DNA of 22,486 nucleotides, taken from positions 1 through 22,486 of the IMG/VR virus record IMGVR_UViG_3300007777_000018; one strand, given 5' to 3'. This stretch comes from a virus. This document shows positions 4,014-22,226 of this stretch, piece by piece. The notes beneath the pieces were generated by a model. It was not told where the DNA came from. It searched no databases and saw only the letters and a list, made by a program, of their open reading frames with translations. The position numbers and the translations under genes were made by a program. How positions within the stretch are numbered: the stretch's first letter is position 1; every line of letters begins with the position of its first letter.

Positions 4014-4271
4014 TTAGTCGTGAAGTTGTGAAGAACTCACACTCACTTTTTTTTTGTTTTGACTTTCTATCTCATCAACCATAGCCGTGTTACTTTTGTC
4101 ATAAGTTACCACTACATTATCAAGAGCCTCAAGCATAGGATTATCAAGTTCTAACTCTATATAAGCCGTTCTTGCACCTACATAGATAACTTTACCTGTA
4201 CTGTAAACTTTATCAGCACACCCACTAAAAAGAAGCACCATCAAGACACTTACTAAAACTAAATTTTTCAT
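4014..4271 (-). CDS. Small lipoprotein, possible outer-membrane spanin
   Basis: The N-terminus is a classic lipoprotein signal: Lys3, a hydrophobic stretch, then lipobox LFSGC with Cys18. The mature part is about 68 aa, with a TGKVIYVGARTAYIE segment and a Ser/Lys-rich end. Its start overlaps the stop of the preceding gene (ATGA). Between a PLA2-like gene and the endolysin, an o-spanin or other envelope role in lysis is plausible, but it lacks the proline richness of Rz1 and no partner i-spanin is identified. A host-modifying surface lipoprotein is the alternative. Confidence 0.7.
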   Translation of the reverse strand: MKNLVLVSVLMVLLFSGCADKVYSTGKVIYVGARTAYIELELDNPMLEALDNVVVTYDKSNTAMVDEIESQNKKKVSVSSSQLHD

Positions 4272-4654: not shown

Positions 4655-4662
4655 TTACCTCC

Positions 4663-5598: not shown

Positions 5599-5810
5599 AA
5601 TGGAACTCTCTCTTTAGGCTCTAATATTTCAGCCTGTACAGTCACACTAAAATCTGGAAGCTCTATTGTCATACCACTTATTAAAACCATAGGCTTATCA
5701 AAGAGTTGCTTATTGGCACTTATTACATCATTTAGATGTTCTAAGTCGCCATAATGTTTAAGCACTATTAAGTCTATTCTATCGCCATCATTACATCTAT
5801 AAAATGTCAT
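5592..5810 (-). CDS. X: Tail protein X (LysM-like, P2 gpX)
   Basis: A 72-aa protein with the gpX pattern: GDRIDLIVLKHYGDLEHLNDVI forms a LysM-like fold near the N-terminus, followed by SGMTIELPDF and a short terminal tail ending in VPLW. It overlaps U upstream by 14 bases and D downstream by seven, the P2 arrangement. The region just after the conserved core encodes SVTVQA with exactly the same 18 bases used for SVTVQA near the start of the helicase gene (20355-20372). Confidence 0.85.
   Translation of the reverse strand: MTFYRCNDGDRIDLIVLKHYGDLEHLNDVISANKQLFDKPMVLISGMTIELPDFSVTVQAEILEPKERVPLW
5631..5648 (+). repeat. Single GTCACA unit E with TGTACA lead-in
   Basis: AGCCTGTACAGTCACACT is an 18-base perfect match (inverted) to 20355-20372, and its 14-base core CCTGTACAGTCACA is also found at 9279-9292. 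No second unit at 24 bp is present, so this is an isolated site near the 3' end of tail gene X, about 35 bases before the start of D. Confidence 0.5.
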
Positions 5811-6204
5811 CGTAAACCTCTTTTAGAGAAAGATTGTAAGTTTGTACTGTATAGTTACCATCATCTGTAAAATGCTCTTTTGTGATATTTAAGTTAGTCA
5901 ATAAGACCTCTATATCATCATTTAAAGTGGTAAATCTAAGAGACTCACGAGCTTTTAAATAATCTTCTAAGCTATTGAGAGCATTAAGAGGTTGAACTAC
6001 CAAAACACCATTTAAAGATAATTTGTTTTCATAGCCACCTGCATCAGATATTCTTTCTTGACCCTTGATAGGTTTAAAACTCCCAAAAGTTGCACTAAGA
6101 GTTTGAGAGATTTTTTTATAAGCATTTTTATCCATATAAAAAGCGAACTCTCCAAGTTTACCCATGCTAAGTCCACTTACAATATTCTCAATTTCATCCA
6201 TCAT
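5797..6204 (-). CDS. U: Tail protein U (P2 gpU-like)
   Basis: P2 gpU caps or terminates the tail tube. The 135-aa product has the family N-terminal pattern MGKLGEFAFYMDKNAYKKI, then RISDAGGYENKLSLNGVL, and a central LNSLEDYL. The start at 6204 overlaps the stop of the nuclease gene (TAATG), and its end overlaps X. Identification relies on the sequence pattern plus its fixed place between T and X. Confidence 0.83.
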   Translation of the reverse strand: MMDEIENIVSGLSMGKLGEFAFYMDKNAYKKISQTLSATFGSFKPIKGQERISDAGGYENKLSLNGVLVVQPLNALNSLEDYLKARESLRFTTLNDDIEVLLTNLNITKEHFTDDGNYTVQTYNLSLKEVYDDIL

Positions 6205-6725
6205 TAGAACCTTTTGTAAATTCCTCTTTTTTCTAAATTAGCCTCACGACTAAGATTTAAGAGGTATTTTTTTCTCTCTTTACTTATCTGATTATTAGGG
6301 TAGTAAACAGCCCAACCTTGACGAACCAAAGAGAAATTTAAAACATCTATCCAAACCAAATCACGACCGTATCTATCTTTGCCATAATTGTAATATTTGA
6401 CTTTTTTACCTAAGTAACGAGCCTCTACATAATCACGAGCTTTAAACCCAAGAGATAAAACTTTTTTAACTGTATGAGAGTATTTATCTTTGTGTTGTGG
6501 ATTATTAGGATGTATCATCTTGAGAGTTTCCAACTGTTTAAAAGTTCTATGGTTTACTTTGGTTTCAAAAGTATCAAGAGCAATGAGGCGAACTTTAAAC
6601 GGCTTCGCACTTCCTTTTTGTAACATCAAAGTATCGCCATCTATCACATACTTAACTTTTGCTTCTTGCCACTCATTCGCAAATAGTGAAGCCACCATCA
6701 ACATCATTAAAATTACTTTTTTCAT
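6204..6725 (-). CDS. Secreted thermonuclease (SNase-like) cargo nuclease
   Basis: A staphylococcal-nuclease-fold enzyme that cuts DNA and RNA with calcium. An N-terminal signal peptide (MKKVILMMLMVASLFA, then NEW) directs it to the periplasm or outside. Active-site residues are present: VIDGDT (27-32), VRLIALDTFE giving Arg46, Asp51 and Glu54, and DRYGR with Arg121. The ATG at 6725 is chosen over 6728 for its spacing from AAAGG. The mature protein is about 157 aa, normal for the family. It is inserted between T and U, where P2 has no gene, and is coupled to U by TAATG overlap. A secreted nuclease could destroy incoming DNA, limit natural transformation, or recycle host DNA at lysis. Campylobacter prophages are known to carry Dns nucleases with such an anti-transformation effect, though Dns belongs to a different family. 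Confidence 0.87.
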   Translation of the reverse strand: MKKVILMMLMVASLFANEWQEAKVKYVIDGDTLMLQKGSAKPFKVRLIALDTFETKVNHRTFKQLETLKMIHPNNPQHKDKYSHTVKKVLSLGFKARDYVEARYLGKKVKYYNYGKDRYGRDLVWIDVLNFSLVRQGWAVYYPNNQISKERKKYLLNLSREANLEKRGIYKRF

Positions 6726-6739
6726 CATTTTCCTTTGTA

Positions 6740-9223
6740 TTAAGATACATCTTGCATTTGCAGGTCTTGCTCATCATGAGCGAGTTCCTTTTGAGCTTTT
6801 GCAAGTTTCTCTTTTAAATCTTCATAGTCTATTTGACCACCTGCACCTGCATGAACTGTTATCTGATTAGTAATATTCTGATTAACTCCCCCCGTGTTAC
6901 TATTGTTTTGCATAAATGTTTTTGTGTCATTTATTTGATTAGATGTAATATCACTTACACTCTCAAGAGGGATAGTCTGAACTTGCACCTCTTTTAGAGA
7001 AGAAGTACCTTGAAGCACCTTTTTATAATCTGTATTATTTACAGGAGTGATAGCTTTAGGTTTCACAGCCCAAAGTGAGTCTTTAGTTTTTACAGGTGCT
7101 AATTTTTTAGGTTTATCATCTCCAAAGCCAAAGAAGTCTTTAGTGCCGTTCCACATACCAGAGGCTTTATCTGTTACACTTGAAGCCAACCCTTTAACTT
7201 TATTAACCACACTCATAACTGCTTGAAATTTTGCATCTATCCAATTAAAAAAAGTAACAAACGGAGATTTAATTGTGTTTACTATTCCACCCCAAATAGA
7301 ACCTGCAACTTGACCAATTAATACCCAACCATTGACAACCATAGCTCCCATATTAACAACCCAAGTAAGAGCAGATACAACCCATTTAATAGGTGTAACA
7401 GCCAAACCAAAAACAGTCGATATAATTCCACCTACATTAGAGAAGTTAATCCCTACAGCATTTAAAACCGTGCCAATAGCTGAAAAAATAGGAGATACTG
7501 CATCAAAAAGACCACCAACGGCATTTATTAAACCACCGAACAATCCTTGAAACTCTGTAAGAACAGGACTCATCCCCTCAGCAAAACCACTCCAGAGGCT
7601 ATCTATTGAAGTCTTTACAAACTCAAATTTATTGTAAAGATATATACCTGCTCCAGCTATTGCCATCACACCAAGAACTATCGCAGTTACAGGAGAGGCT
7701 AAAAGTGCTAAACCTGCACCAACTCCAGAGGCTATAAGTCCAAAACCTGCAAGAGCTACAGAACCAACCACAAAAGCAGCACCCAAACCAAACACCCATT
7801 TTGAAGCAGTAGGAAACTTTTGAGTAAACTTATCTAATCTCTCTGCACCACTTTTTAAAACATTTGATACTGATTTAATCGCAGGAAGTAAACCATTAGT
7901 TGCACTAATTGATAAACCCTCCATAGCCGATGAAAGTAGTTTAAAATGCCCTGCAGTTGTATCAAGTTTTATAGTCTGAATATTTTTAGTAGTTCCACTT
8001 GAATTATCCAAAGTAGATTGATAATCAAGTAAACCTTTTTTACCTACTTTTAGAAGAGCAATCCCACTACTTAGAGCAGTCATTCCAAAGATGTGTTTTA
8101 GCTTTTTAGTTTTAGCTTCATCACTCATACCAACCATAGACTGATTTAATTCGCCTATGATGTTTGGCATACCTTTAAACTTCCCTTTGGCATCAAAAAC
8201 AGATACACCAAGAGCCTCTAAAGCTTTTCGTGCCTCAGTAGGTGGAGCAGATAATCGTGTGTACATCTGGCGAAGCGAAGTACCTGCCATTGAACCTTGA
8301 ATACCTACATCGCCAAGCTTACCTGCAAGTGCCGAAACTTCACTAAGACCTACACCAAGACCAGAGGCTATCGGTGCAGTATATTTCATAGTTTCGCCCA
8401 ACATCTCTAAATCTGTATTTGAAGTTGTAAAAGTCTTTGCTAAAATATCTGATACCATTCCCATTTTTTCAGCTTTGATGGAGAACCCACTTAAAATATT
8501 TGAACCAATATCAGAAGCTACACCTAAATCAACACTTCCTGCAGTAGCTAAACCAAGAACCCCACTCATTGCTCCAAGTTGTTGTTTAGCATTAAAACCT
8601 GCTTTTGCTAAGTAAGTCATACCTATTGCACTTTGAGAAGCTGACCACTCAGTAGTCGCACCAAGTTCTTTTGCTTTTGCCGTTAGAAGAGTAAAATCCT
8701 CAGCCGTGATATTTTTAGTTAAAGCTTTAACATCAGCCATGCTACTTTCAAAGTTGATAGAAGCTTTAAAGGGTAAAGTTAAAAGAGAAGCAGTAGCAAC
8801 AGCTCCAACTATTGCACCTGTACCCATTTGACTAGCTTTAGGAGTATTTTTTTTAGCTACTCTTGCACCTCTTTGAAGATTATCAGCACTTTTACGAGTC
8901 CAAAAAGCAGTTTGTTTGGCATCATGCTCAATAGCAGTCATATCCTTACGAGCTTCTTTTAAACTATTTCGTGAAGTTTTTATATCAAGGCGAATAGGAT
9001 TAGCACTTATCTTTGCACTTTGACTTCTAATTTTTCCTAAGTGGTTATCAAGTTGTTTGAGATTTCTATTAAGAAGAGGAAACTTAGTGCTTTGTAAAAG
9101 ATTAGCTTTAGTAACTTTTTGAGCATAAGTGTGAATACCTTTAACACTTGCTTGTAAAAAACTACTTCCCTTTATGGCAGGGTTCCACACCATATTTAAA
9201 CTTACTGAACCAAGACCTGCCAT
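6740..9223 (-). CDS. T: Tail tape measure protein T
   Basis: Sets tail length and fills the tube before injection. At 827 aa it is the longest gene. The N-terminal about 150 residues are helical and charged. The TP901-type tape-measure core runs from about residue 155 (NFESSMADVKALTKNI) through SMAGTSLRQMYTRLS to about 480. A strongly hydrophobic block around 487-545 (WVFGLGAAFVVGSVALAGFG onward) is a typical membrane-active tape-measure segment. The C-terminus is Lys/Gln-rich. It starts 229 bases after the HU-like gene ends, and that gap holds array C. AAAGG precedes the ATG. Confidence 0.92.
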   Translation of the reverse strand: MAGLGSVSLNMVWNPAIKGSSFLQASVKGIHTYAQKVTKANLLQSTKFPLLNRNLKQLDNHLGKIRSQSAKISANPIRLDIKTSRNSLKEARKDMTAIEHDAKQTAFWTRKSADNLQRGARVAKKNTPKASQMGTGAIVGAVATASLLTLPFKASINFESSMADVKALTKNITAEDFTLLTAKAKELGATTEWSASQSAIGMTYLAKAGFNAKQQLGAMSGVLGLATAGSVDLGVASDIGSNILSGFSIKAEKMGMVSDILAKTFTTSNTDLEMLGETMKYTAPIASGLGVGLSEVSALAGKLGDVGIQGSMAGTSLRQMYTRLSAPPTEARKALEALGVSVFDAKGKFKGMPNIIGELNQSMVGMSDEAKTKKLKHIFGMTALSSGIALLKVGKKGLLDYQSTLDNSSGTTKNIQTIKLDTTAGHFKLLSSAMEGLSISATNGLLPAIKSVSNVLKSGAERLDKFTQKFPTASKWVFGLGAAFVVGSVALAGFGLIASGVGAGLALLASPVTAIVLGVMAIAGAGIYLYNKFEFVKTSIDSLWSGFAEGMSPVLTEFQGLFGGLINAVGGLFDAVSPIFSAIGTVLNAVGINFSNVGGIISTVFGLAVTPIKWVVSALTWVVNMGAMVVNGWVLIGQVAGSIWGGIVNTIKSPFVTFFNWIDAKFQAVMSVVNKVKGLASSVTDKASGMWNGTKDFFGFGDDKPKKLAPVKTKDSLWAVKPKAITPVNNTDYKKVLQGTSSLKEVQVQTIPLESVSDITSNQINDTKTFMQNNSNTGGVNQNITNQITVHAGAGGQIDYEDLKEKLAKAQKELAHDEQDLQMQDVS

Positions 9224-9278
9224 AATTAAACCTTTTATTTATTTTTTTATATCTATTTTAAAAATCCTAAAAATTCAT

Positions 9279-9387
9279 CCTGTACAGTCACATATTTTAA
9301 AGCTAGATCACTCACACTTTTTATAGCCGGTCTGTCACACTTTAATTGCCAGGACCTGTCACATATTTGTCTTGCAGCTAAGACACA
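9279..9387 (+). repeat. GTCACA array C: five phased units with TGTACA lead-in
   Basis: Units start at 9287 (GTCACATATTTTAAAG), 9311 (CTCACACTTTTTATAG), 9334 (GTCACACTTTAATTGCC), 9358 (GTCACATATTTGTCTTGC) and 9382 (GACACATTT); spacing is 24, 23, 24 and 24 bp. CCTGTACA precedes the first unit, as in D and E. This is the longest copy and lies in the largest gap of the tail operon. Most units continue as GTCACA-Y-WTTT. Confidence 0.75.
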
Positions 9388-9401
9388 TTTAGAATTTTAA
9401 A

Positions 9402-9436
9402 AAGAGATAGAGTCAAGAGGGAATGACCTCTTAACT
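9402..9436 (-). terminator. Probable terminator after the HU-like gene
   Basis: On the minus strand AGTTAAGAGG pairs with CCTCTTGACT (one G-U) across TCATTC, spanning 9436-9411. CTATCTCTTTTTAAAA follows, with the T run beginning about seven bases past the stem. It would separate the HU-like gene from array C and the tape-measure gene, so T and later genes may need readthrough or a promoter in 9224-9400. Confidence 0.5.
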
Positions 9437-9452
9437 CGTATGTGTTTAGTTA

Positions 9453-9773
9453 CTAAGCAGTAACAGGAGCATTCATTGCATCAAGAAGTTTGTCACTCTC
9501 AACGAATTGAACATGAAAACCTGCAGGAGCAGTTCCAAGAGTACCATCTGGTAGTTTGTAGTTTCTCTCTGCATGAGAACGAACCTCTAAAGTACCAAGA
9601 CCAGAAGCTTTGATTGAAGAACCTGCAACAAGTGCATTGAAAGCTAAATCGTTAGCTTTGTCCATAACTTGGTCAACTAAAGTTTTAGTAACTTTGATAC
9701 CATCTGCTGTAAGTGAAGCATGAACTGCCTCTCTAGCCTCTTTTTCATTGATTGATTTTAATGCTGTAGCCAT
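9453..9773 (-). CDS. HU/IHF-family DNA-binding protein
   Basis: A 106-aa protein with the HU/IHF layout. Helices I-II (INEKEAREAVHASLTADGIK, VTKTLVDQVMDKAND) are followed by GSSIKASGLGTLEVRSHAER, matching the HU pattern in which GFGTF leads to the beta arms, and then a shortened, less basic arm (NYKLPDGTLGTAPAGFHVQF). Such proteins bend DNA. It has a very strong AAAGGAG ribosome site nine bases before ATG and a terminator-like hairpin after it, so it may be expressed at high level on its own. Its place between E' and T is unusual for a P2-type tail block. The weak basic arm leaves open a structural or assembly role rather than DNA bending. Confidence 0.75.
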   Translation of the reverse strand: MATALKSINEKEAREAVHASLTADGIKVTKTLVDQVMDKANDLAFNALVAGSSIKASGLGTLEVRSHAERNYKLPDGTLGTAPAGFHVQFVESDKLLDAMNAPVTA

Positions 9774-9841
9774 AATATGACTCCTTTTTGTGTTTTTATT
9801 TTTTACAGCTTTGCCAACCTACTTACAGAGCAGGACTGTTT

Positions 9842-10314
9842 TTATGAGTTATTTAAACTCATTAACTCAAGCTTTTGCTTGTGTTTTTTGATTGATACAT
9901 TGTAATAATCAATCCACTCACTAATCGGTAATGCTTTTTGCTCTCTTACTGTTAAAAGAAAAAACTCACTTACCAACGAATAGCACTCAAGCTTAGTAGC
10001 TTTAGAGCCACCAAGCCGAACTAAAAACCCTGTAAAACTTCCATCACTAAAGCACTATCTTTATTAGCTAAAGCAAGAGCCTCTTTGTAATCAATACCTG
10101 CAGAGATAGAAATTTGTACATAACCACCAACTTTGCCCTTTTCAGTCTCTTTAGCGATGATTTCATCATCAAAACCTGTAAGCTCATTAAGTGTGAGTTC
10201 TGTAACTTTTTTAGTTTCTTTACCCTCTGTAACTTCTACAGTTTCCCCAAAAGGATAAACTCTTGAGAGAGTAACTTTCTCTTTAGCATAATCAATAGCT
10301 TGTATTTTTGACAT
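9842..10314 (-). CDS. E: Tail assembly chaperone E+E' by -1 frameshift
   Basis: Gene E is followed by a second frame with no start of its own. The slippery heptamer GGGTTTT (minus strand, 10030-10024) is read G GGT TTT directly before the E stop TAG. A -1 slip continues from 10024 through about 60 further sense codons (FLVRLGGSKATKLECYSLVS onward, including REQKALPISEWIDYY) to TAA at 9844-9842. The fused product would be 157 aa, with base 10024 read twice. In P2 the E/E' pair uses the same strategy, and tail chaperones in most long-tailed phages have a frameshifted long form that loads the tape measure. The gene order FII-E-E'-T agrees. The frameshift is inferred, not measured. Confidence 0.8.
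10021..10314 (-). CDS. E: Tail assembly protein E (short, unshifted form)
   Basis: A 97-aa protein corresponding to P2 gpE, a tail assembly chaperone not found in the finished virion. It shows the family feature of an early beta region with charged loops, then TELTLNELTGFDDEII (typical of gpE/gp41-like chaperones), and ends in a helix ...ALVMEVLQGF. It begins ten bases after the tube gene, on the same transcript. Most ribosomes should stop here, with a minor fraction slipping into E'. Confidence 0.82.
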   Translation of the reverse strand: MSKIQAIDYAKEKVTLSRVYPFGETVEVTEGKETKKVTELTLNELTGFDDEIIAKETEKGKVGGYVQISISAGIDYKEALALANKDSALVMEVLQGF

Positions 10315-10323
10315 CTAAGCCCC

Positions 10324-10800
10324 TTATATATTGTTGTTAAAATCAGGAGCCATATCAACACCTGCTAAAATACATTTGTAAGGATTTCTACTATAAACAA
10401 TAGTCGGAATTCCATCTACAACCTCAGAGTACATATCAACACGAATTTCAAACTCTCTCTTAGTTGAGTCGCCCTCTTTTACCTCTCCGCTCATTTTGTG
10501 AAGCTGACCTTGAGCAGTAATTAAAAGAGATTTATCTTCGCCATCCTCACGGATATTTCCTTTTAATACAAAAGGTAAACCTGCACTCATGTGAGCTACA
10601 AACTCAGCACCTAAGTTCTTAACTGCAATAGTCATTTTAGGTTGCTTAACTAAGCCTGTACTCTCTTCGTTCACAGTTTCAAACTCGAACTCTGGTTGCT
10701 TTGTACCCTCATCCGTATAACCGAATGTATTTTTACCTGCTATCATAATTGATAGCCCTGTTAGTATCTGGCTTGGTAAGCCTAAACCATTTTTAGTCAT
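10324..10800 (-). CDS. FII: Major tail tube protein FII
   Basis: Forms the inner tube of the contractile tail. The 158-aa length and beta-rich composition fit P2 FII (172 aa). Landmarks are the N-terminal LPSQILTGLSIMIAGKNTFGY, the middle GEVKEGDSTKREFEIRVDMY and the C-terminal NPYKCILAGVDMAPDFNNNI. It lies immediately after the sheath gene with a three-base gap, the invariant FI-FII order. Confidence 0.9.
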   Translation of the reverse strand: MTKNGLGLPSQILTGLSIMIAGKNTFGYTDEGTKQPEFEFETVNEESTGLVKQPKMTIAVKNLGAEFVAHMSAGLPFVLKGNIREDGEDKSLLITAQGQLHKMSGEVKEGDSTKREFEIRVDMYSEVVDGIPTIVYSRNPYKCILAGVDMAPDFNNNI

Positions 10801-10803
10801 TGT

Positions 10804-11991
10804 TTAACCCTCCACCGAGTAATATTCATTAGTTGCATAAGGTTGAATTACAATCGCTCTTACACCTACATTGTTACCTGCATCATAATCCATGTACAAG
10901 ATACCTGCGGCGATTTCAGCACCGTTGTTTTTATCAGACCACCAAACTTTCGCACCAACTGCCGCACCACTATTTACAGCTTTTAGAAGAAAAGCCTCTG
11001 CATCAGCTTTAGCCAAAGTTAGCACATCAGTTACAGGACGATGTTTGTGTCTTTTTAGAGATTTTTGTAAGTTCTCATTTAAAAGGTCAAAGAAACGGAT
11101 CGTCTCAAGTTTGTTAAAACGAGCATCATCGCTTGGTGTTTCAAAGTTATAAAGACGATTTCCATCATCATTAAGTAGCAAAGCACCACCTGCATTAACT
11201 ATCTGATTTACATCACAAGTATCCTCGCCCTCTTCATAAGTAAGAGGAATTACACAACCCTCTACATCATAAATAAGTTGATTAGCATGGTCAAAACAAG
11301 AACCAAACTCGCCCATAAGTGCATCGTGGTAAGCTATGTGACCTGCAACAACTGCAGAGTTAGGTTTAGATATTGTTTTGTTTTCAAAAACACTCCATAC
11401 TTTTCTATATAGTGGGAATGCTAAGTATCTCATAGAACCAAGCTCTTGTAACTTCACGATAGAGTCTGTTACACTATTTAAGTATAAATCCACAATAGCA
11501 ATAGTTTTAGTTCCAACTGCAAAGCTATCAAGAGCATTACGAACAGTTGCATCGTGTGAAAAATAAGAGGCAATAGCAATTCTTACTTTTGCACCAAATA
11601 ATGTACGAGCTTTTTGTAAGTTACCAACAGCAGTTACAATCGCACTTTTAAACTCTGTATCTTCATAAAACACTTGAGGAGTTTTATCAGCATGAGCCTC
11701 AGTAAGTTCTACTAAAGAGATAACTACAGGAGATTTAACATTTTGCATTTTAATATCATGCAAATCCTCTCTAATAGTTCCTGCTTGAGTTTTAAACACC
11801 TCTAAAGCTTCCTCAGCATTTCCAAATCTAAGCAAATTACTCTGACTCTCATCATTTAGCTTTGCAACTACACTCTCATCCATTCCAACTAAAGAAGCAG
11901 AACCAACAAGACCGATAACCGTTGTAGATGTTATAATCGTTGCAGTAGCACTCGCATTTTTAGTAGGTAAAACTTTTATTCCGTTTGGCAT
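10804..11991 (-). CDS. FI: Tail sheath protein FI
   Basis: Forms the contractile sheath. At 395 aa it equals P2 FI (396 aa). Family-like parts are an N-terminal STTVIGLVGSA, a central AVVAGHIAYHDALMGEFGSC and a C-terminal ending VGVRAIVIQPYATNEYYSVE. The C-terminal domain (about residues 285-395: NKLETIRFFDLLNENLQKSL onward) has the typical handle-forming sheath pattern. Neighbours are the DUF4376-like gene upstream and the tube gene downstream. Confidence 0.92.
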   Translation of the reverse strand: MPNGIKVLPTKNASATATIITSTTVIGLVGSASLVGMDESVVAKLNDESQSNLLRFGNAEEALEVFKTQAGTIREDLHDIKMQNVKSPVVISLVELTEAHADKTPQVFYEDTEFKSAIVTAVGNLQKARTLFGAKVRIAIASYFSHDATVRNALDSFAVGTKTIAIVDLYLNSVTDSIVKLQELGSMRYLAFPLYRKVWSVFENKTISKPNSAVVAGHIAYHDALMGEFGSCFDHANQLIYDVEGCVIPLTYEEGEDTCDVNQIVNAGGALLLNDDGNRLYNFETPSDDARFNKLETIRFFDLLNENLQKSLKRHKHRPVTDVLTLAKADAEAFLLKAVNSGAAVGAKVWWSDKNNGAEIAAGILYMDYDAGNNVGVRAIVIQPYATNEYYSVEG

Positions 11992-11992
11992 A

Positions 11993-12310
11993 CTAAGCCT
12001 CCTCTAATTCATTTTTTAAAGCACGATATTTAAAATATATCTCTTTAACTTTTTGACTACCTGCTTTAATCAAAGCACCAAAATCAACCTTACTAAAAGT
12101 TACAGTTTGATTGTTAATATCAATCCACTCTATAACTTCATCATCTGTAGCGATGTTATGCTGAACAGCCATCGTTTTAATGATGTCCTCATTCATAAAT
12201 ACATCAGATACCACTAAACCTGCTTTTAATTCTTTTGTACGAGCTTGATTTAAATCAAACTTTTTACCAAGAATTAAAGCACTTTCACTTGGATTGTTAT
12301 TTGCATCCAT
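11993..12310 (-). CDS. DUF4376-like tail-fibre-associated protein
   Basis: A 105-aa protein. The second half, EWIDINNQTVTFSKVDFGAL then VKEIYFKYRALKNELEEA, matches the pattern of DUF4376-type domains found in phage fibre and fibre-assembly proteins (W..DN.. ... YR.LK). It occupies the position of P2 gene G, the fibre assembly chaperone. It is one base from the preceding gene and one base from the sheath gene. A chaperone or small fibre-bound part is likely; direct proof is lacking. Confidence 0.55.
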   Translation of the reverse strand: MDANNNPSESALILGKKFDLNQARTKELKAGLVVSDVFMNEDIIKTMAVQHNIATDDEVIEWIDINNQTVTFSKVDFGALIKAGSQKVKEIYFKYRALKNELEEA

Positions 12311-12311
12311 T

Positions 12312-12776
12312 TTATAAGTCCTTTATCTTTGTAATTTTAATTGTGTAGTCGTTATAACTAGTGCCATCTTCTTTAACCTCAGTTTGAGTAGATAAGTCAA
12401 AACTTGCTTTTACCCAGTATTTATTCTCATCACTACGAACTAACTCACATCTAGTGTCATATGTATTTACTTCTGATAAAACAGGAGTGCTGAGACCACA
12501 GCAATGTTGTTTAACAAAAAATGTTTTATCAAGATGACCTCTATCTGAACGAATTGTTACAAAAGCATTTGAGGCACTAAATTCAACGGTTACATAACCA
12601 TCTTCTGTAACCGTTCCACTAATCTCGTTTTGACCGAAATACGATGCTCTCCAACTTTCAAGCTCCTCTACTTTTGCTTTTACTTCACCATCCCATTTAT
12701 TGTATTGACCTTTTACTAAGTCCATAAAATCATTTACTTTATTAGTTAAATTTGCTACTTCCGTTGCTAAACTCAT
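12312..12776 (-). CDS. Putative tail fibre tip / receptor-binding protein
   Basis: A 154-aa protein with an N-terminal helical, coiled-coil-like segment (about residues 1-45, ending EELESWRASYFGQ), followed by a beta-rich domain (GTVTEDGYVTVEFSASNAFV and beyond) with three cysteines (HCCGL, YDTRCEL). A short trimeric coiled coil carrying a beta domain is a common design for fibre tips. Its start overlaps the stop of the previous gene. No family is recognised by name. The beta domain would be expected to vary most between related phages. Confidence 0.5.
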   Translation of the reverse strand: MSLATEVANLTNKVNDFMDLVKGQYNKWDGEVKAKVEELESWRASYFGQNEISGTVTEDGYVTVEFSASNAFVTIRSDRGHLDKTFFVKQHCCGLSTPVLSEVNTYDTRCELVRSDENKYWVKASFDLSTQTEVKEDGTSYNDYTIKITKIKDL

Positions 12777-13330
12777 TAATTCGCTCCCATTTCTTTAATT
12801 TCAGCTTCTATTAGATAATGAAAGTTTTTAGTATTCATCCCTAACATCGCTACTATTGGTTCTAAAAATCGCTCCTCAGCCTCTGCCTCTGGCAAATACT
12901 CAGTATTTCTAAAAACCACCTCTCCCTCATTACCTTTTATTGGTATTTTTATAGGGAACTGACCACCAATCTGCTCATTTAAGTAGATGATAGGAGTTTT
13001 AGCTATCGTTCCGACAATCAAATCATCAGAAAATAAACCTACTGCATAAAGGTGCTTGTTATAGCTATCTTCATTAGTTAGATTTACAATCGCTGTAAAC
13101 ACCCCTGCATCATCAAAATATGTACTCTCTACACTCTTATCATCAAAAACATAGTTCTTAATTTGAGTATATGTGAGTGTTGCAGTTTGCTCTAAAAGAT
13201 TTTTTAGAGTTCCATCATTAACACTTGCTGAACCAATCAGAACAGCTCTATTAAACTTACCTCTCATTTGAGAGTTTAAGTAATCTAGTAACTGCTGATT
13301 AGGTAGAGCCGTTAAACCTCCACTTGCCAT
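12776..13330 (-). CDS. Tail fibre-like protein, short (gpH position)
   Basis: A 184-aa protein in the place of P2 gene H. The run of residues about 88-135, YNKHLYAVGLFSDDLIVGTI then LNEQIGGQFPIKIPIKGNEG, resembles the N-terminal baseplate-attachment domain of tail fibre/collar proteins (DUF3751-like). The usual long shaft and collagen-like repeats are missing, so this phage seems to split the fibre over this and the next genes or to have a very short fibre. It overlaps gene I by 19 bases. Confidence 0.6.
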   Translation of the reverse strand: MASGGLTALPNQQLLDYLNSQMRGKFNRAVLIGSASVNDGTLKNLLEQTATLTYTQIKNYVFDDKSVESTYFDDAGVFTAIVNLTNEDSYNKHLYAVGLFSDDLIVGTIAKTPIIYLNEQIGGQFPIKIPIKGNEGEVVFRNTEYLPEAEAEERFLEPIVAMLGMNTKNFHYLIEAEIKEMGAN

Positions 13331-13971
13331 CTATAACCTCCTATTAAAGTTGTCTCATCTAGTGCGATACCCTCATCAATGCTCGTGTCTAAAGTTGAGT
13401 TATAAACCCAACCACCATTTAAAGGAATATCATCACTAATGATTAACTCATTGATACTCATAAATGGACTCACTTTTAAAGGGTCGCTTCCATTACTCAC
13501 TAAAACCTCTGCAGTTATAAGTGGTAAATGAATATCAAAAGACTCTAATTGACTTCTAATATTTTTTGCTTTTTTGATTAGTCTTTTAGAAAGATAAAAT
13601 AATCTATCATCATAAATGAGTGAAGTATCTGCTTTTAAAGTCACATCAACTCTAAACATTCCAACTTCTAAACTATCATCACTCATCCACTCTATAACAT
13701 GAGCTTCATCCCATACAGCATTAACTGCATCTTCAACTGCTCCGATAGTTCCGAGTGATTTTCTTCTAAAAGTTTTTAAATAAGCTCTAGCCTCATGTTC
13801 AAGCATATTGTCAATATTTGCACCCTTTATAACTGCTATGTGAGGTAAAAGAGAGGCATCACATAACATAGGGTCATTACTCAAGTCTTTATAATCTACT
13901 CTTGAGCGAGTATCTAAGAGAACTGCAAATCTTTGAGCTTGTAAGCTTGAATTTTTAGGAAGTAAACTCAT
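13312..13971 (-). CDS. I: Tail protein I (baseplate, P2 gpI)
   Basis: P2 gpI is a baseplate wedge protein. The 219-aa product fits: an N-terminal LLPKNSSLQAQRFAVLLDTR, then MLCDASLLPHIAVIKGANID and VNAVWDEAHVIEWMSDD, corresponding to the gpI pattern in which the first region leads to P.WLLPWLAW...V..W. The start overlaps the gene J stop (ATGA), so J and I are coupled. Confidence 0.85.
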   Translation of the reverse strand: MSLLPKNSSLQAQRFAVLLDTRSRVDYKDLSNDPMLCDASLLPHIAVIKGANIDNMLEHEARAYLKTFRRKSLGTIGAVEDAVNAVWDEAHVIEWMSDDSLEVGMFRVDVTLKADTSLIYDDRLFYLSKRLIKKAKNIRSQLESFDIHLPLITAEVLVSNGSDPLKVSPFMSINELIISDDIPLNGGWVYNSTLDTSIDEGIALDETTLIGGYRWQVEV

Positions 13972-15080
13972 AGCTCTGCCTCTCTAAAATTGAGGGTTAA
14001 ACTCTCAATAACAATTATTTGTTTATCATTAAGTATCACATCTTCAAAATCACTATAAACACGATACACACCATCTATATGGCATTTTCTTATAAAATCA
14101 CTTGCCACCAAGTTTTGACCTATAAAAAAAGAATTGTTAAAATTAGCTCTAATATTTGTATCAATTTCGCTCTGTTTGAGAAGATCAAAAACTTCTATAG
14201 TTGCAGTTAGATTTAAACTAACTATCTCAGCAGGTTTAACTATTACATTGTCGTTAATGGGTCTGACATATTTTGCAGTACAAGCTTCATAAACTCTATT
14301 TATCATAAGTGCATCTACACCCTCAAAAGAGGCTAAATATATATTTACATCAAGCACTTTCTCATCAAGAACCACAATATCATCTATTCTACTATCAGCA
14401 CTCACAACATGATATATATAAGCTTCCTCAGCTCCTGCAGTTGAGTATCTATCTGCACTACTGATTATTCTAAGTCTATATCTATCATCGCTCTCTAAGC
14501 CTGTACCATTTGAAAAAATATTAAGTTGTTTAACTTTTACAGCATAAGTAAGCTCAGTTACTAAGTTCTCTGTTTTTACATCACTCTCAGATACATACTG
14601 CTCTAACTCAACTTTTACAATAGCTACATCGTTACCTGCAAATATAGTTACATCATCAACTGTATGAGCTTTGTATTTATCATCATCACTATTTAAAATC
14701 ACTCCTGCAGGTATTGTTAAATCTACATCACTTGGAGTTAAAAGAGTAAATTCAAAGTTAGCATAAGGATATTCCCCCTCATCTCTAAAAACATTCTCTT
14801 GGCTTCCTAAATGGTCAAGGTCTGCACCTGTAGCCGTTGTGATAAGTAACTGTTTAACAGTCTCTTTTTTATCATTTTGATTTATCATCTGGCGAAGTGT
14901 CAAAACTCTTAATTTTTTCATATAAGGGTCTGACTCCAGAGGAAGCCACTCAGTCTCATTTGTACTAAGCTCTTCTTTTGCAAGTGCTACATTTTCAGCT
15001 AAAAGTTCATCAAAAGTTTTTATTTTAAAAGCAGTAGGCTCTTGTAGAGAAGAGATTTTATTTTCTAAATCATTATACAT
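13968..15080 (-). CDS. J: Baseplate assembly protein J
   Basis: Baseplate wedge subunit of the gpJ/T4 gp6-like family. At 370 aa it is slightly longer than P2 J (302 aa). Typical features are TATGADLDHLGSQENVFRDE (about residues 82-101), FTLLTPSDVDLTIPAGVIL (about 110-128), and DRYRLRIISSADRYSTAGAE (about 199-218), the ...AGs..aY... motif of J proteins. It overlaps W upstream and I downstream. Confidence 0.92.
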   Translation of the reverse strand: MYNDLENKISSLQEPTAFKIKTFDELLAENVALAKEELSTNETEWLPLESDPYMKKLRVLTLRQMINQNDKKETVKQLLITTATGADLDHLGSQENVFRDEGEYPYANFEFTLLTPSDVDLTIPAGVILNSDDDKYKAHTVDDVTIFAGNDVAIVKVELEQYVSESDVKTENLVTELTYAVKVKQLNIFSNGTGLESDDRYRLRIISSADRYSTAGAEEAYIYHVVSADSRIDDIVVLDEKVLDVNIYLASFEGVDALMINRVYEACTAKYVRPINDNVIVKPAEIVSLNLTATIEVFDLLKQSEIDTNIRANFNNSFFIGQNLVASDFIRKCHIDGVYRVYSDFEDVILNDKQIIVIESLTLNFREAEL

Positions 15081-15402
15081 TTACGACTCCCTTTAAGATG
15101 AAGTAACCAATCTTTACATCAAAGTACACCTTACCTGCACCGATAGACTCAGTATTAACAGTTGCACTTTTAAACTCAAGTCTAGGGTCATGCTTACAGG
15201 CATCTTTTAGACATCTTTTAAAGTCAATTATCCAAGAACTATCAAAAGCTCTATGCTTTAACTTTGGTAAGATAGTTCCGTAATCTGGTTTACCAATAAC
15301 ACTACCTTTTAAAGTAGTAAGTCCATCAACAAAGCTCTGCTCTGCACTAACTACATAACCATCTAAGCCAAGTGGTAAAGTAGTGTTTAAAATATCTATC
15401 AT
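15073..15402 (-). CDS. W: Baseplate protein W (gp25-like lysozyme-fold wedge)
   Basis: Wedge component of the gpW/gp25 family. SFVDGLTTLKGSVIGKPDYGTILPKL corresponds to the family pattern of ...Il.T..Gsr...P.yG..L, and DPRLEFKSATV is the usual P.l.i..v segment. The ATG at 15402 is preferred: it overlaps the stop of the previous gene (TGATG) and is seven bases after AAGG, whereas the GTG at 15405 is only four away. The product is 109 aa. Confidence 0.88.
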   Translation of the reverse strand: MIDILNTTLPLGLDGYVVSAEQSFVDGLTTLKGSVIGKPDYGTILPKLKHRAFDSSWIIDFKRCLKDACKHDPRLEFKSATVNTESIGAGKVYFDVKIGYFILKGVVNV

Positions 15403-15587
15403 CACGAAACCTTGTAGCTTCCTGCAGATGAACCACTAGCAACTACAACCTCTGCATTAGCTTGTATCTCTGCTATTACTGCTTTGGCGATTGCATTAGC
15501 TAAACACTTATTTTCATTTGTAAGTTTTAACCCACAGCTTTGCATATTTGCTTCTATTTTTGATTTTAGTGAGCTATCAGTAATCAT
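15402..15587 (-). CDS. Small protein between V and W, 61 aa
   Basis: A 61-aa protein coupled on both sides by overlapping stop and start codons. It has a central helical segment (NKCLANAIAKAVIAEIQANAEVV) and two cysteines, ending in a Ser/Gly-rich tail (ASGSSAGSYKVS). It is not the PAAR tip protein. The place between V and W suggests a baseplate or spike accessory. No function is recognised. Confidence 0.65.
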   Translation of the reverse strand: MITDSSLKSKIEANMQSCGLKLTNENKCLANAIAKAVIAEIQANAEVVVASGSSAGSYKVS

Positions 15588-16156
15588 TTGACCGACCTTG
15601 TATTTTGACTTTCATCTGCATGAGGAGAACCCGTGAACGGACAAATACTCTCAGCCGTAATAACACCCTTGCCACCTATACCTAAATCAATACTAGAACT
15701 ATCAACTGTTACATCATCAGCCGTAACAGTTGCACTTTTACATTCAACAGTTATATTTTTATCTGATTTAACAATTACATCTTTAGCAATATTTAGTGTG
15801 ACAGAACAGGGAGTATTTAGAGAGATTTCTTTAGTTTTAATATCATGTATATAAGTAGTGCCATCTTCAAACTTTTGTATATATTTATCTTCGTCTGCAT
15901 CATCTGGAAGAGGTACAGATTTATAAGTTAAGTTTCTATCGACAAAGCCATCTTCATTATTTCCAAACGGATTAAAAACGATTACTTGGTCATTTATTCT
16001 TACAGGTGTATGAACTACTAAAAAAGAAGAAGCTTGAGTTTTTACAGGAAGCCAATTTGTAACTCTATCATCAACACTAACTTTTACCTCAAGTTTTTTA
16101 CCTGCAGTTTCAGTTGTGTATCTAAATTCAGTTATTAAGCCATACTGTATCATCAT
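15584..16156 (-). CDS. V: Baseplate spike protein V
   Basis: P2 gpV is the trimeric membrane-piercing spike. The 190-aa product has an N-terminal OB-like domain (VKVSVDDRVTNWLPVKTQAS, VHTPVRINDQVIVFNPFGN), a beta-helix formed by short repeats rich in D/T/V/S (residues about 110-170), and the family ending ICPFTGSPHADESQNTRSVK. Two ATGs (16156 and 16153) are equally good. It is the first true tail gene of the operon. Confidence 0.9.
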   Translation of the reverse strand: MMIQYGLITEFRYTTETAGKKLEVKVSVDDRVTNWLPVKTQASSFLVVHTPVRINDQVIVFNPFGNNEDGFVDRNLTYKSVPLPDDADEDKYIQKFEDGTTYIHDIKTKEISLNTPCSVTLNIAKDVIVKSDKNITVECKSATVTADDVTVDSSSIDLGIGGKGVITAESICPFTGSPHADESQNTRSVK

Positions 16157-16160
16157 TAAA

Positions 16161-16517
16161 TCACTTTGCTTTTATTAAGTCTAAAAGTCGTTCTTGGTTT
16201 AAAGACATTCTGTCCATCTTATTAGCTACTCCGATGTAGCACTCTTTAGTGTTTGCTCTCTCTATCTCTAAAGTGTCATTGAGAATATTTACAATCTCTT
16301 TATGTTGCTTTTGGCTATCTTGGTACATAACGATAAATTCTTTTTGATTATTAGCCGTTTTAGTGATTGCATCAGCGAGTTGTTGTTGGTTCTTTTTATC
16401 TCTTAAAATTGCAAAGATAAGACCTGCTGAAACAATCAGCAAAACAACTACACTTATGCCTAAAACTCCATATTCAAAATATGCACTCGCAGTTCCTAAA
16501 ATTAACTTATCAGGCAC
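16161..16517 (-). CDS. Single-span membrane protein, candidate holin
   Basis: A 118-aa protein with one strong transmembrane segment (about residues 17-37, YGVLGISVVVLLIVSAGLIF) followed by a cytoplasmic-type coiled coil (RDKKNQQQLADAITKTANNQ onward). This shape resembles BhlA/XhlA-type holin or hemolysin proteins. A clear AGGGGAG ribosome site precedes the ATG. It is the first gene of the late operon, next to V, and no other holin is visible. Holin is the best guess; a membrane-bound structural accessory is the alternative. Confidence 0.5.
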   Translation of the reverse strand: MPDKLILGTASAYFEYGVLGISVVVLLIVSAGLIFAILRDKKNQQQLADAITKTANNQKEFIVMYQDSQKQHKEIVNILNDTLEIERANTKECYIGVANKMDRMSLNQERLLDLIKAK

Positions 16518-18818: not shown

Positions 18819-18889
18819 GAAAATTTAAAAAGGGAGGATTTTTAACTAAATTATTATTACAACAACGGCAACCAACTAAAAACATATAG
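18815..18889 (+). CDS. 24-residue basic peptide
   Basis: ATG 18815 overlaps the previous stop (ATGA), and TAG lies at 18887-18889. The peptide MRKFKKGGFLTKLLL... is basic and amphipathic. Its 3' part contains AACGGCAACCAA (18864-18875), the exact complement of 19225-19236. The reading frame may exist mainly to carry ribosomes across that RNA segment. Coding evidence is limited to the overlap. Confidence 0.4.
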   Translation: MRKFKKGGFLTKLLLQQRQPTKNI

Positions 18890-18958
18890 AAAACTTATAT
18901 AAGTTTAAGTATGTTTTTAATATAATTTTCAAAATACAACAGTATAAGGTAAGAAATT
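18890..18958 (+). promoter_or_regulatory. Possible second early promoter region
   Basis: This gap holds a perfect 12-bp palindrome ACTTATATAAGT (18893-18904) and a consensus TATAAT (18921-18926), about 33 bases before the ribbon-helix-helix gene. No convincing -35 is at the right distance. The palindrome is a candidate operator for the encoded ribbon-helix-helix protein. Confidence 0.35.
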
Positions 18959-19162
18959 ATGAGCGATGATATTTTCACAGTTCCAACAGATAAAAGTCTG
19001 TTTGACTTTAAATATAAGAGAAAACAAACTAATTACTCAATTCCAGAGGATGTTAAACACGATTTTGATGTTTATGCTTCAAAGATGAATTTGAATAAAT
19101 CAAGAGTTATCGAAACTTTAATCATTAATTTTTTAATAAATGCAGGGGTAAGAGAAAAATAG
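18959..19162 (+). CDS. Ribbon-helix-helix (CopG/Arc-type) DNA-binding protein
   Basis: A 67-aa protein whose second half is a clear RHH fold: strand TNYSIPEDV (residues 23-31), helix A HDFDVYASKMN, helix B SRVIETLIINFLIN. The N-terminal 22 residues are an unstructured-looking extension. RHH dimers bind short palindromes, such as the 12-bp one upstream of this gene. AAGG precedes the start. It sits between the early regulators and the replication genes, so control of replication gene expression is likely. Confidence 0.75.
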   Translation: MSDDIFTVPTDKSLFDFKYKRKQTNYSIPEDVKHDFDVYASKMNLNKSRVIETLIINFLINAGVREK

Positions 19163-19166
19163 ACAT

Positions 19167-19233
19167 AAAAAAAGGGTAACTGCTTGAGAACAGCTACCCT
19201 TGATTGAGATGCAATAACATCGGTTTGGTTGCC
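19167..19233 (-). ncRNA. Predicted antisense small RNA upstream of the primase
   Basis: A sigma-70-like promoter (19265-19237) would start a minus-strand RNA near 19233-19230. It ends at a strong terminator: AAGGGTAGCTG pairs with CAGTTACCCTT (one G-U) across an eight-base loop (19201-19172), followed by seven T (19173-19167, the first two also in the stem). The RNA of about 65 nt begins near GGCAACCAAACC and is fully complementary to the mRNA between the ribbon-helix-helix gene and the primase gene. The plus-strand version of the same DNA forms its own hairpins (AGATGCAATAAC with GTTATTGTATCT). No protein is supported on the minus strand here. Confidence 0.55.
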
Positions 19234-19236
19234 GTT

Positions 19237-19265
19237 ATTGTATCTAATAATCACTTATGTGTAAA
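19237..19265 (-). promoter_or_regulatory. Promoter of the antisense RNA
   Basis: On the minus strand TTTACA (19265-19260) and TACAAT (19242-19237) are each one mismatch from the sigma-70 consensus and are separated by exactly 17 bp. A terminator lies about 40 bases downstream, which makes a self-contained small-RNA unit. Confidence 0.55.
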
Positions 19266-19291
19266 TAAATTAGTTAAATTAGGACAATAAT

Positions 19292-20332
19292 ATGGGAAAT
19301 GAACCTACAATCGAACAAATAAAACAATCTTTAGACATCGTGACAGTAGCCGAAATGTATGGCGAACTTATAAAAAATGGTGCTAACTACAAATATAAAA
19401 ATGACTCAAGCTTAGTCATAAATCCATCTAAACAGATTTTTAGTAACTTTAACGGAGACATAACAGGAGGCTCAGTCCTTGACCTTGTTATGTATATGGA
19501 GAAGAAAGATTTAAAAGCAGGTATTGAGCGACTTAAAGAGTTAAGTTCACTTGATACTTACACAGTTGACCCTGCTCTTCAAATAAAAAGAAAAGAAGAA
19601 GCAAAAGCTAAAAAAACGGTTGACTTCAATAAGCTTCAAGATTGGGGAAACCAAGAGCTTAAAATGGTTGGTATTCATAGACCTATTGAGTATCAAGATA
19701 AAGACGGAAAAACACTTTACTATTTAGTACCAAGTGAACTTGAGCGATTATTTGAAACTAAACAGCTCCCTGCTGAATACAAACAAAAATTAGATTATAT
19801 GTTTTCTAACCTCATAGGTTGGAATAAACACTTCAACTGCTCAAGTATCATTATAAAAGATGATATAGGTCGTATAGTTGATTTAATAGCATATAGACCT
19901 AATAAACCAGACTCATATAATGATTGGAATAATCCAAAGTATATCTACAAAAACTCGCACAACAGAGGAGAGAGCTTTTTATACCCTTTTAGAAAAGAGG
20001 TTGAAAGTATTTTATTTAAACCCTCAAACACAGATAAATATATTATAGTTGGAGAGGGCATCAAAAATGGCTTAAATGCTCTTTTGTATTCAGTTCCTTT
20101 TATTCCTCTTGAAAGTTCATCAAATAAAATTAGTGATAGTTTAATCGCATATATAAGAAACCTGCATGAGCAAGGTTACACAATTATATCTATGTTTGAT
20201 GGAGACAAAGCAGGAGCTAAAGCACATGAAAACTTTATAGCTCAATCTGGACTTCAAGTAAATAACTTTTTAGCCTTTGATAGTGGGCTTGATTTTGTAG
20301 AGTATCTACAGTCTGGAGATAACAATGAATAA
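19292..20332 (+). CDS. TOPRIM primase (DnaG/P4-alpha N-terminal type)
   Basis: Makes primers for phage DNA replication. Residues 1-85 resemble the N-terminal CHC2-type domain (IEQIKQSLDIVTVAEMYGEL, NPSKQIFSNFNGDITGGSVL, LVMYMEK), but none of the zinc-binding Cys/His is present. The TOPRIM domain covers about 248-340, with VGEGIKNG (Glu255) and MFDGDKAG (Asp303, Asp305) as metal ligands. The 346-aa length equals the N-terminal half of a fused primase-helicase. AGGA lies about eight bases before the ATG. Its stop overlaps the helicase start by eight bases. The long leader upstream holds the predicted antisense RNA. Confidence 0.85.
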   Translation: MGNEPTIEQIKQSLDIVTVAEMYGELIKNGANYKYKNDSSLVINPSKQIFSNFNGDITGGSVLDLVMYMEKKDLKAGIERLKELSSLDTYTVDPALQIKRKEEAKAKKTVDFNKLQDWGNQELKMVGIHRPIEYQDKDGKTLYYLVPSELERLFETKQLPAEYKQKLDYMFSNLIGWNKHFNCSSIIIKDDIGRIVDLIAYRPNKPDSYNDWNNPKYIYKNSHNRGESFLYPFRKEVESILFKPSNTDKYIIVGEGIKNGLNALLYSVPFIPLESSSNKISDSLIAYIRNLHEQGYTIISMFDGDKAGAKAHENFIAQSGLQVNNFLAFDSGLDFVEYLQSGDNNE

Positions 20333-22226
20333 TGTGTCAGAGCAGCAGAGCAAAAGTGTGACTGTACAGGCTAACTCTATAACTAACAAAATTCAAGCTA
20401 TAAAAGATAGTGCTAAAAAGAGTTTAACTCCAAGTGATGATTATTTCAACCAAGTAGGCGAGTATTTAACTGCTGTAAATTCTATTAGAGAAAAGAATAA
20501 GCTTCATAATGAAGATAAGTCGGCAATTATATTTAATGCTTTTGTTGAAGAGAAAAAAGACATTGACCGAAGATATGAGGGTACAAAAGAGAAAGATGCA
20601 CTCAAGCTAAAAATGAATGAACTTGAAATGGCTTATTTTAAATATGCTAAGAAAAATGCTTCATACGATAGACTTGGAAAGGCTACTCTTTTTTATGATG
20701 CAATCACAGATATGTATGTAAGAATATCAAGATATATAGATGTTGATAAGGATGGCACAGAGCATGACCGTATCAGAACAGACCGTTTTAAACCATCAAC
20801 TATAAACAAATATATCGACCTTGAGTCTAAAAAACTCGCAGGTGTACATATTGATACAAAATTAAGAACTACTATACTTAGAAACTTCAAGCCATTTATT
20901 AAAGAATTTGCACCACTTAAACCTGCTTTTTATGGCGAGTTCTTTAATACTTACAAGCCGAACGGCTTTTTAGATGTTAATGTACAAAATGTTTTAAGTG
21001 TTGAAAACTTCACAGAAATAACAATGCCTCAGCGATACCCAATAATAAACGCACTACTTGAGAACATAGCACCTTATATAGATGAGCGAGTATTTTTACT
21101 TAATTGGTTAAGTACGATTTTAAACACAGCTAAAAAGACTAAGACTGCTATTATCCTCAAGGGAATTCAAAGAACAGGTAAAGGTGTATTCGCTTCTAAA
21201 ATTATAGAGTATGCAATGCACGAGAGCAACTGTTTTGTAGCTACTAATGCAAATCTTAGTGATAATTTTAATAGCTACTTAGAAGATAAGCTATTTATAA
21301 CTTTTGATGAAGTAAAGGGAGATTTTCACAAAGACAAAGATATTGCAAATAAAATCAAGCTCATAGTGTCCGAAGAGAACATATCTATCAGAACTATGCA
21401 CACAAATCCTTATATGATTAGATTTACAGCTAACTGTATCTTTTTAAGTAATGAAGATTTACCTATTCCAATGGATCAGTCGGATGAGAGATTATCAGTT
21501 ATTGAAACGAAGTCAAAAGTTTTAGCTCAAGTGGCAAGAGAAATGGGATTAAATGGAATGCCAGAGTTTATACCTCTTTTAGAAAAAGAACGAGATGCTT
21601 TTTTAGTTCATTTAAAGATGTGTAAATTTGATATTAATTTAGCAATGTCAACTATCAAAAATAAAACTAAGAAAGCCATCCAAGATGCAACATCTACTAC
21701 TCAATCTGTTTTAAAAACTGCATTTAGAAGCCAAGACCTTGAGACTATTGATGAAATTTTAGAAGAGGCTATTCAAGACACTAGAAACTCTATTCTAATA
21801 AAATCAGAGATTGAAAAAATGGTACAAGGAGAGTATGGAGCTTCTAAAGTAAAAGAGACTATTCCTTTCCCTCATCCAAATATAAATATGAAATCAATCT
21901 TCATGGAAGAGTTAAAAGCAGGTTTTATCTCAAATACTAGCTTAAAATGGTTTAGCAATGTAACAAATATCGAACACATACTAAAAAGCGATACAAAGTT
22001 TGGTAACTTCTGGAACTTGGTACTTAACCAAGCGACACTCATAAAATTAAAATGGGAAGATAATCTAAACACTCCAGAGGGAGTTCAATTAGTAGAGTTC
22101 ACACATAGTGAGAAGTTTAGACCTATCAATCAACATGAAGAGATAAAGACTTTTCACTTCAACCAAAAGACTTTCGCATTCACAGGCAAAAAGACAGCAG
22201 TAGAGCTTACTCAAGACATCTTCTAA
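20325..22226 (+). CDS. SF3 replicative helicase (P4 alpha / D5-type)
   Basis: Unwinds DNA at the phage origin. Walker A is GIQRTGKG (280-287), Walker B LFITFDEV (323-330), and the SF3 motif C is FTANCIFLSNEDLP (367-380). The preceding 230 residues contain the D5_N-like region (LLNWLSTILN). The C-terminal 200 residues are helical and end in a Ser/Phe-rich part, perhaps an origin-binding domain as in P4 alpha. The 633-aa length fits. Together with the overlapping primase gene it equals one split P4-type alpha protein. The first 20 residues, encoded by array D, look like a disordered tail. An iteron-rich region starts directly after the stop. Confidence 0.88.
   Translation: MNNVSEQQSKSVTVQANSITNKIQAIKDSAKKSLTPSDDYFNQVGEYLTAVNSIREKNKLHNEDKSAIIFNAFVEEKKDIDRRYEGTKEKDALKLKMNELEMAYFKYAKKNASYDRLGKATLFYDAITDMYVRISRYIDVDKDGTEHDRIRTDRFKPSTINKYIDLESKKLAGVHIDTKLRTTILRNFKPFIKEFAPLKPAFYGEFFNTYKPNGFLDVNVQNVLSVENFTEITMPQRYPIINALLENIAPYIDERVFLLNWLSTILNTAKKTKTAIILKGIQRTGKGVFASKIIEYAMHESNCFVATNANLSDNFNSYLEDKLFITFDEVKGDFHKDKDIANKIKLIVSEENISIRTMHTNPYMIRFTANCIFLSNEDLPIPMDQSDERLSVIETKSKVLAQVAREMGLNGMPEFIPLLEKERDAFLVHLKMCKFDINLAMSTIKNKTKKAIQDATSTTQSVLKTAFRSQDLETIDEILEEAIQDTRNSILIKSEIEKMVQGEYGASKVKETIPFPHPNINMKSIFMEELKAGFISNTSLKWFSNVTNIEHILKSDTKFGNFWNLVLNQATLIKLKWEDNLNTPEGVQLVEFTHSEKFRPINQHEEIKTFHFNQKTFAFTGKKTAVELTQDIF
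20333..20372 (-). repeat. GTCACA array D: two units with TGTACA lead-in, inverted
   Basis: On the minus strand, CCTGTACA is followed by GTCACACTTTTGCTCTGC (from 20362) and, exactly 24 bp on, GACACATTATTC (from 20338). This is the same layout as the two ends of array C, in opposite orientation. It lies in the first 16 codons of the helicase gene and encodes SEQQSKSVTVQA. Confidence 0.65.

Follow-up and report, generated by a model that had tools for sequence, protein, structure and literature searches.

A predicted antisense RNA gene upstream of the primase gene in a linear plasmid-like element

Positions 19167 to 19265 of the 22,486-nucleotide stretch of DNA analyzed here (the window) probably constitute a gene for a countertranscript RNA that, through translational attenuation, holds down expression of the primase, which is presumably the replication initiator of this linear plasmid-like element. 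The gene is located between a CopG-like ribbon-helix-helix (RHH) gene and a DnaG-type primase gene. The relevant features of the window are as follows.

18850 to 18875, plus strand: second copy of the antisense promoter and RNA 5' end, inverted and locus specific
18891 to 18926, plus strand: predicted operon promoter, with TATAAT at 18921 to 18926 and the palindrome AAACTTATATAAGTTT at 18891 to 18906
18959 to 19162, plus strand: RHH protein, CopG/Arc-like, 67 amino acids; first gene of the operon
19167 to 19201, minus strand: hairpin 1, an intrinsic terminator, with a 13-pair stem (19201 to 19172) and then seven T (19173 to 19167)
19167 to 19230, minus strand: predicted antisense RNA of ~64 nt, with a 5' AACCAAACCG tail, a weak small hairpin, and the terminator
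19201 to 19253, plus strand: hairpin 2 of the mRNA leader, with left arm (19201 to 19218), inner stem, loop (19225 to 19230), and right arm (19231 to 19253)
19231 to 19249, plus strand: part of the right arm of hairpin 2 that is the predicted anti-RBS; its other strand holds the antisense −10
19237 to 19265, minus strand: antisense promoter, TTTACA (19265 to 19260), 17 bp, TACAAT (19242 to 19237), G−14 at 19244
19277 to 19296, plus strand: primase translation start region (AGGA; ATG at 19292), complementary to the right arm
19292 to 20332, plus strand: primase, with DnaG zinc ribbon (PF01807) and Toprim-like region; the predicted controlled gene
20325 to 22226, plus strand: helicase/ATPase (DUF5906), second gene of the replication pair

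Promoter-like matches are common in this AT-rich DNA (41 found in the scanned region versus 48 expected), and terminator-like sites numbered 8 versus 3.3 expected. The antisense promoter belongs to the top class in that region (10 of 12 consensus matches), and hairpin 1 is its strongest terminator. Pairs in which a 10/12 promoter is followed, at a distance of at most 110 nt, by a terminator with a T-run and a stem of 8 or more pairs occur once in the 22.5-kb window, at the antisense site, and none of the same grade appeared in 60 dinucleotide-shuffled windows. The minus-strand promoter and seven-T terminator reported in the first-pass annotation are present as described. The predicted RNA (19230 to 19166) folds at −23.0 kcal/mol, well below shuffles (z = −6.6). 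Its length was proposed there as ~65 nt; the predicted +1 is now placed at the A at 19230, seven nucleotides after the −10, which gives ~64 nt. An Rfam scan returned no family above the gathering threshold (best, Atu_C4; 26.7 bits versus a threshold of 80), and the record holds no further copy of the RNA. Mechanical ORF calling places a 60-amino-acid minus-strand ORF at 19254 to 19072, overlapping the RHH coding region.

Searches of IMG/VR and species genomes yielded 17 relatives of the primase (51 to 77% identity over the aligned part), located on IMG/VR contigs and in Campylobacterota MAGs. We compared these loci with the window, for a total of 18; because the loci are mutually related, counts across them are not independent. 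Three of the 17 relatives lie in MAGs labelled Helicobacteraceae, Sulfurospirillum, and Sulfurimonas, and the MAG bins suggest sulfur-cycling Campylobacterota as hosts. The primase had no tblastn match among published phages and plasmids, and a class-wide search with a primase profile returned, beyond the known loci, weak matches resembling chromosomal DnaG.

The module, including the same two hairpins, separates the RHH gene from the primase gene in all 18 loci. The minus-strand −10 (TAYAAT, i.e., TACAAT or TATAAT) and G−14 are likewise present in every locus, and the −10 always sits 45 to 55 nt before the primase start codon. The predicted +1 is A in 15 of 18 loci, with a start of AACCAC or AACCAA (AACCAM) in most. 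A match to the TTTACA −35 is restricted to the closest relatives; the constant features are the extended −10 and phased A/T, a pattern to be expected of sigma70 promoters in Campylobacterota. In Campylobacter jejuni, ~89% of promoters have periodic A/T in place of a −35 box, together with an extended −10, TGxTATAAT (PMC3656092), and therefore the lack of TTTACA in distant loci does not speak against a promoter. A minus-strand T-run follows hairpin 1 in most loci (missing or poor in L001, L003, L004, and L008; L020 is too short for a judgment). L016 retains its −10 but has lost the match in the left arm of hairpin 2. The hairpin 1 region of L003 (4712 to 4890) consists of about five tandem copies of a ~37-bp unit with one hairpin arm. 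Overall, the 18-locus comparison strongly supports the earlier proposal of a cis antisense RNA acting on the primase-helicase operon.

Covariation was assessed by pairing each hairpin arm with its own partner or with partners exchanged between loci, an alignment-free approach adopted because a MAFFT alignment set the left arm of hairpin 2 out of register. For both hairpins, arms paired far better with their own partners than with swapped ones (hairpin 1, −16.1 versus −7.5 kcal/mol; hairpin 2, −15.2 versus −7.8 kcal/mol), and no rearrangement out of 20,000 was as good in either case. With one locus per clade, the result was again 0 of 14,833 for both. On the plus strand, hairpin 2 of the window folds with z = −4.8 relative to shuffles. 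The non-Watson-Crick pairs of the two hairpins indicate opposite strands: hairpin 1 has 12 G·U to 1 A·C when read on the minus strand (P = 0.003, related sequences), and hairpin 2 has 11 G·U to 3 A·C when read on the plus strand (P = 0.06, related sequences). These opposite wobble preferences argue that the terminator has been selected in the minus-strand RNA and hairpin 2 in the mRNA.

At each locus, the right arm of hairpin 2 has complementarity to the locus's own primase RBS and AUG, often extending to codons 2 and 3 (for example, UUGUAGCC/GGCUACAA in L010, AUUAUAUC/GAUAUAAU in L018, and CCUGCAUUAUAU/AUAUGAUGCAGG in L020; right arm/start site). The mean pairing energy was −13.5 kcal/mol for own partners compared to −9.2 for swapped partners (standard deviation, 0.6; 0 of 20,000 rearrangements as good) and −6.8 for a shuffled RBS. 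Among eight clade representatives, own and swapped energies were −14.3 and −8.3 (0 of 14,833 rearrangements as good). The right arm was also the best 20-nt leader window for RBS pairing in 17 of 18 loci; pairing was weak in L005, L006, and L007. Pairing of the antisense RNA to the leader just upstream of the primase, as first suggested, holds as far as complementarity is concerned; however, the footprint (left arm and loop of hairpin 2) ends ~60 nt short of the primase AUG, and the predicted inhibitor of translation is the right arm of hairpin 2. When the footprint was blocked in folding, RBS accessibility in the window fell from 0.66 to 0.16, with the RBS taken by the right arm; the average over loci fell from 0.45 to 0.26. 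Accessibility in a swapped-leader control also fell about as much (0.53 to 0.37), so the drop is no evidence of selection, whereas the locus-specific complementarity is. In six loci (L001, L003, L004, L008, L009, and L019), the closed RBS structure is already favored at equilibrium, such that folding order matters there, and the attenuation model would require hairpin 2 to form first. No T-run follows the RBS hairpin, and therefore translation, not transcription, is the predicted target.

These features suggest a mechanism for an operon ordered as promoter, copG-like RHH gene, leader, primase, and helicase. In the nascent mRNA, the left and right arms would form hairpin 2 first, and the primase RBS would stay open. 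The antisense RNA would be made constitutively from the opposite strand, in an amount proportional to copy number. Its first six nucleotides are the exact complement of the hairpin 2 loop (UUGGUU, 19225 to 19230), where the 5' tail would begin pairing before spreading along the left arm. The freed right arm would then pair with the primase RBS, AUG, and codons 2 and 3, blocking translation. Together with RHH repressor bound at the operon promoter, the antisense RNA would provide two-level control of copy number, and incompatibility.

The RHH gene lies directly upstream of the primase gene, co-directional with it, in all 18 loci (~64 to 71 amino acids). The best PDB relative of the RHH profile is CopG of pMV158 (E = 0.001), which was also the top Foldseek match to an RHH model of modest quality, at a weak E of 0.5. 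Just upstream of the −10 of the RHH operon, AAACTTATATAAGTTT forms a perfect 16-bp palindrome common to the window, L017, and L021. It is a possible operator, and the RHH protein may repress the operon promoter, as in pMV158. In most relatives, the antisense promoter and RNA 5' end recur in inverted orientation 65 to 118 bp before the RHH gene, and this second copy resembles the module of its own locus more than that of others (score of 32.4 versus 20.5 when swapped; 0 of 3,000). The pattern points to either concerted evolution or a binding site that both copies share. As an RNA-pairing partner, the inverted copy showed no wobble bias (21:23), and for this reason RNA pairing is not claimed for it.

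Several other readings of the module were weighed against translational attenuation. The antisense RNA may be real and act more simply, with the leader duplex leading to RNase III cleavage or with polymerase collision, and with the complementarity of right arm and RBS being secondary. The RNA is fully complementary to the leader, cis-antisense RNAs commonly act through duplex decay, and the three loci with weak right-arm pairing would fit. This reading, however, gives no role to a locus-specific complementarity that exceeds all 14,833 rearrangements, and we consider it unlikely. Because hairpin 2 and the pairing with the RBS involve only the plus strand, a cis-acting switch in the mRNA (a thermosensor or a protein-binding leader) might account for them, the minus-strand promoter being incidental. 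Yet the −10, G−14, and +1 motif are kept in minus-strand orientation in 15 to 18 of 18 loci, the wobble pairs of hairpin 1 (12:1) and the T-run in most loci point to the same strand, and L016 has kept its −10 with a left arm that no longer matches. A switch of this kind is therefore very improbable.

Similarly improbable is the proposal that the inverted repeats are DNA elements, such as RHH operators, an origin, or a site where the primase initiates on single-stranded DNA. They do lie directly upstream of the primase gene, and the locus-specific inverted copy before the RHH gene is what co-evolving operators would produce; DNA sites, however, need neither opposite wobble preferences nor a spaced +1, a terminator, and RBS complementarity. 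AT-rich intergenic DNA rich in promoter-like matches could in principle yield such an arrangement by chance, but the absence of any comparable pair from the shuffled windows and the presence of the module at all 18 loci leave this explanation next to no probability, and the comparative data already contradict it. Translational attenuation by a countertranscript RNA thus remains the reading that we consider likely.

The first-pass annotation had considered lysogens and superinfection immunity, a setting that fits the relatives less well than a plasmid does. Longer relatives start with a gene for a telomere resolvase (ResT/TelK-like), followed by one for a ParA-like ATPase (L066, L067, L069, L072, and L073, at the start or end of records G403, G402, G412, G399, and G408). 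The resolvase of a relative matched PF16684 (E = 3.4 × 10−12), with ResT as the best PDB match (E = 1.6 × 10−5); the gene was found in seven IMG/VR records and one MAG contig, and had no tblastn match among published phages and plasmids. The ParA-like ATPase matched PHROG 164 and did not match Pfam AAA_31. Both ends of the G402 record and ends of G412 and G406 showed perfect terminal palindromes (arms, 49 to 127 bp), as expected if assembly reads around a hairpin end. The relatives are apparently linear plasmids of Campylobacterota, ~26 to 27.5 kb long, with closed hairpin ends. No integrase was detected in the relatives, and terminase and HK97-type capsid families (PF03237 and PF05065) had no match in 14 records. 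The near-complete G402 has no unassigned ORF large enough for a terminase or portal. N15-like telomere elements are comparable in the resolvase gene and closed hairpin ends seen in the relatives; they differ in that no complete phage (head, terminase, and tail) is present here.

Contractile tail genes (sheath, tape measure, and baseplate) are present at 3553 to 16517 of the window and in the relatives. The window is a shorter record without the resolvase and ParA region, and the hairpin ends and missing head genes were seen in the relatives; on this basis, the element is most plausibly one part of a linear plasmid that carries a headless contractile-tail module, possibly a tailocin. Elsewhere in the window (635 to 3474), cytosine and adenine DNA methyltransferases adjoin a PAPS-reductase-like protein, which may belong to a DNA modification pathway. 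With protelomerase, ParA, and hairpin ends present, and integrase, terminase, and capsid absent, control of replicon copy number is a better fit than prophage immunity and is the likelier role of the antisense RNA. We regard as rather unlikely a three-part switch in which read-through from an upstream operon on induction would carry the inverted copy, pair it with the right arm, and override the antisense RNA, thus coupling amplification to headless-tail production.

The parallel with plasmid copy-control RNAs drawn in the first-pass annotation is a good one, with a layout like that of pMV158 and a mechanism like that of pSK41. The copG-RNAII-repB region of pMV158/pLS1 has the same order of RHH repressor gene, intergenic countertranscript, and initiator gene. 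Its RNAII is a short antisense RNA with a 5' tail and a terminator hairpin, in which the tail leads pairing and translation is inhibited (PMC4485353, PMC5703833). By sequence, the antisense RNA here also consists of a 5' tail and a terminator. In contrast, the controlled genes here encode a PF01807 primase and DUF5906 helicase rather than a rolling-circle Rep_2 initiator. The site to which RNAII pairs directly precedes the translation signals, whereas here the pairing would end ~60 nt upstream of the AUG, with the freed right arm covering the RBS; pMV158 is also circular, and the element here linear. Closest in mechanism is the RNAI-rep system of pSK41/pSK1 (staphylococcal RepA_N plasmids), in which a stem-loop forms over the rep RBS once the antisense RNA binds (PMC5703833); here, too, a leader segment is predicted to pair with the RBS. 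However, the pSK41 scheme has a RepA_N initiator and no CopG-like gene, and its RNAI has two stem-loops and a dispensable 5' tail.

The leader-switch logic is shared with the repABC ctRNA (Rhizobium etli p42d and Ti plasmid RepE). Without that ctRNA, a large stem-loop leaves the repC SD and AUG open, and the leader is switched when the ctRNA pairs (PMC3155836); for p42d, the 5' tail was suggested to mediate loop-linear recognition (PMC4485353). The alternative structure there is a transcription terminator, whereas the RBS hairpin here lacks a T-run, and the genes differ. The pT181 RNAI-repC and pIP501 RNAIII-repR systems follow a pre-emptor logic, in which the antisense RNA takes the left arm and the right arm forms an inhibitory structure (PMC5703833). 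That logic is common to the module here, but attenuation there is mainly transcriptional and here would be translational. Given the different initiator, the antisense module belongs to none of the pMV158, pSK41, pT181, and repABC systems. The parallel with P4 CI RNA, also raised earlier, stands insofar as both are short RNAs acting on a primase-helicase (alpha) operon. CI RNA arises by processing of the sense-strand leader and acts by causing termination; because it comes from the sense strand, the parallel is weak, the RNA here having its own promoter and terminator on the strand opposite the controlled operon.

To our knowledge, antisense replication control has been worked out on circular plasmids, and in the literature searched we found no report of it for telomere phages or for linear plasmids with hairpin ends. 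If correct, our reading would give a family of Campylobacterota linear elements, one not represented in the public phage and plasmid collections that were searched, a copy-control and incompatibility module open to testing. It would also constitute an evolutionary parallel to pMV158, with the same repressor and antisense layout placed before an unrelated initiator. The covariation of the right arm with the primase RBS would make this family well suited as a natural system in which to test translational attenuation triggered by antisense RNA.
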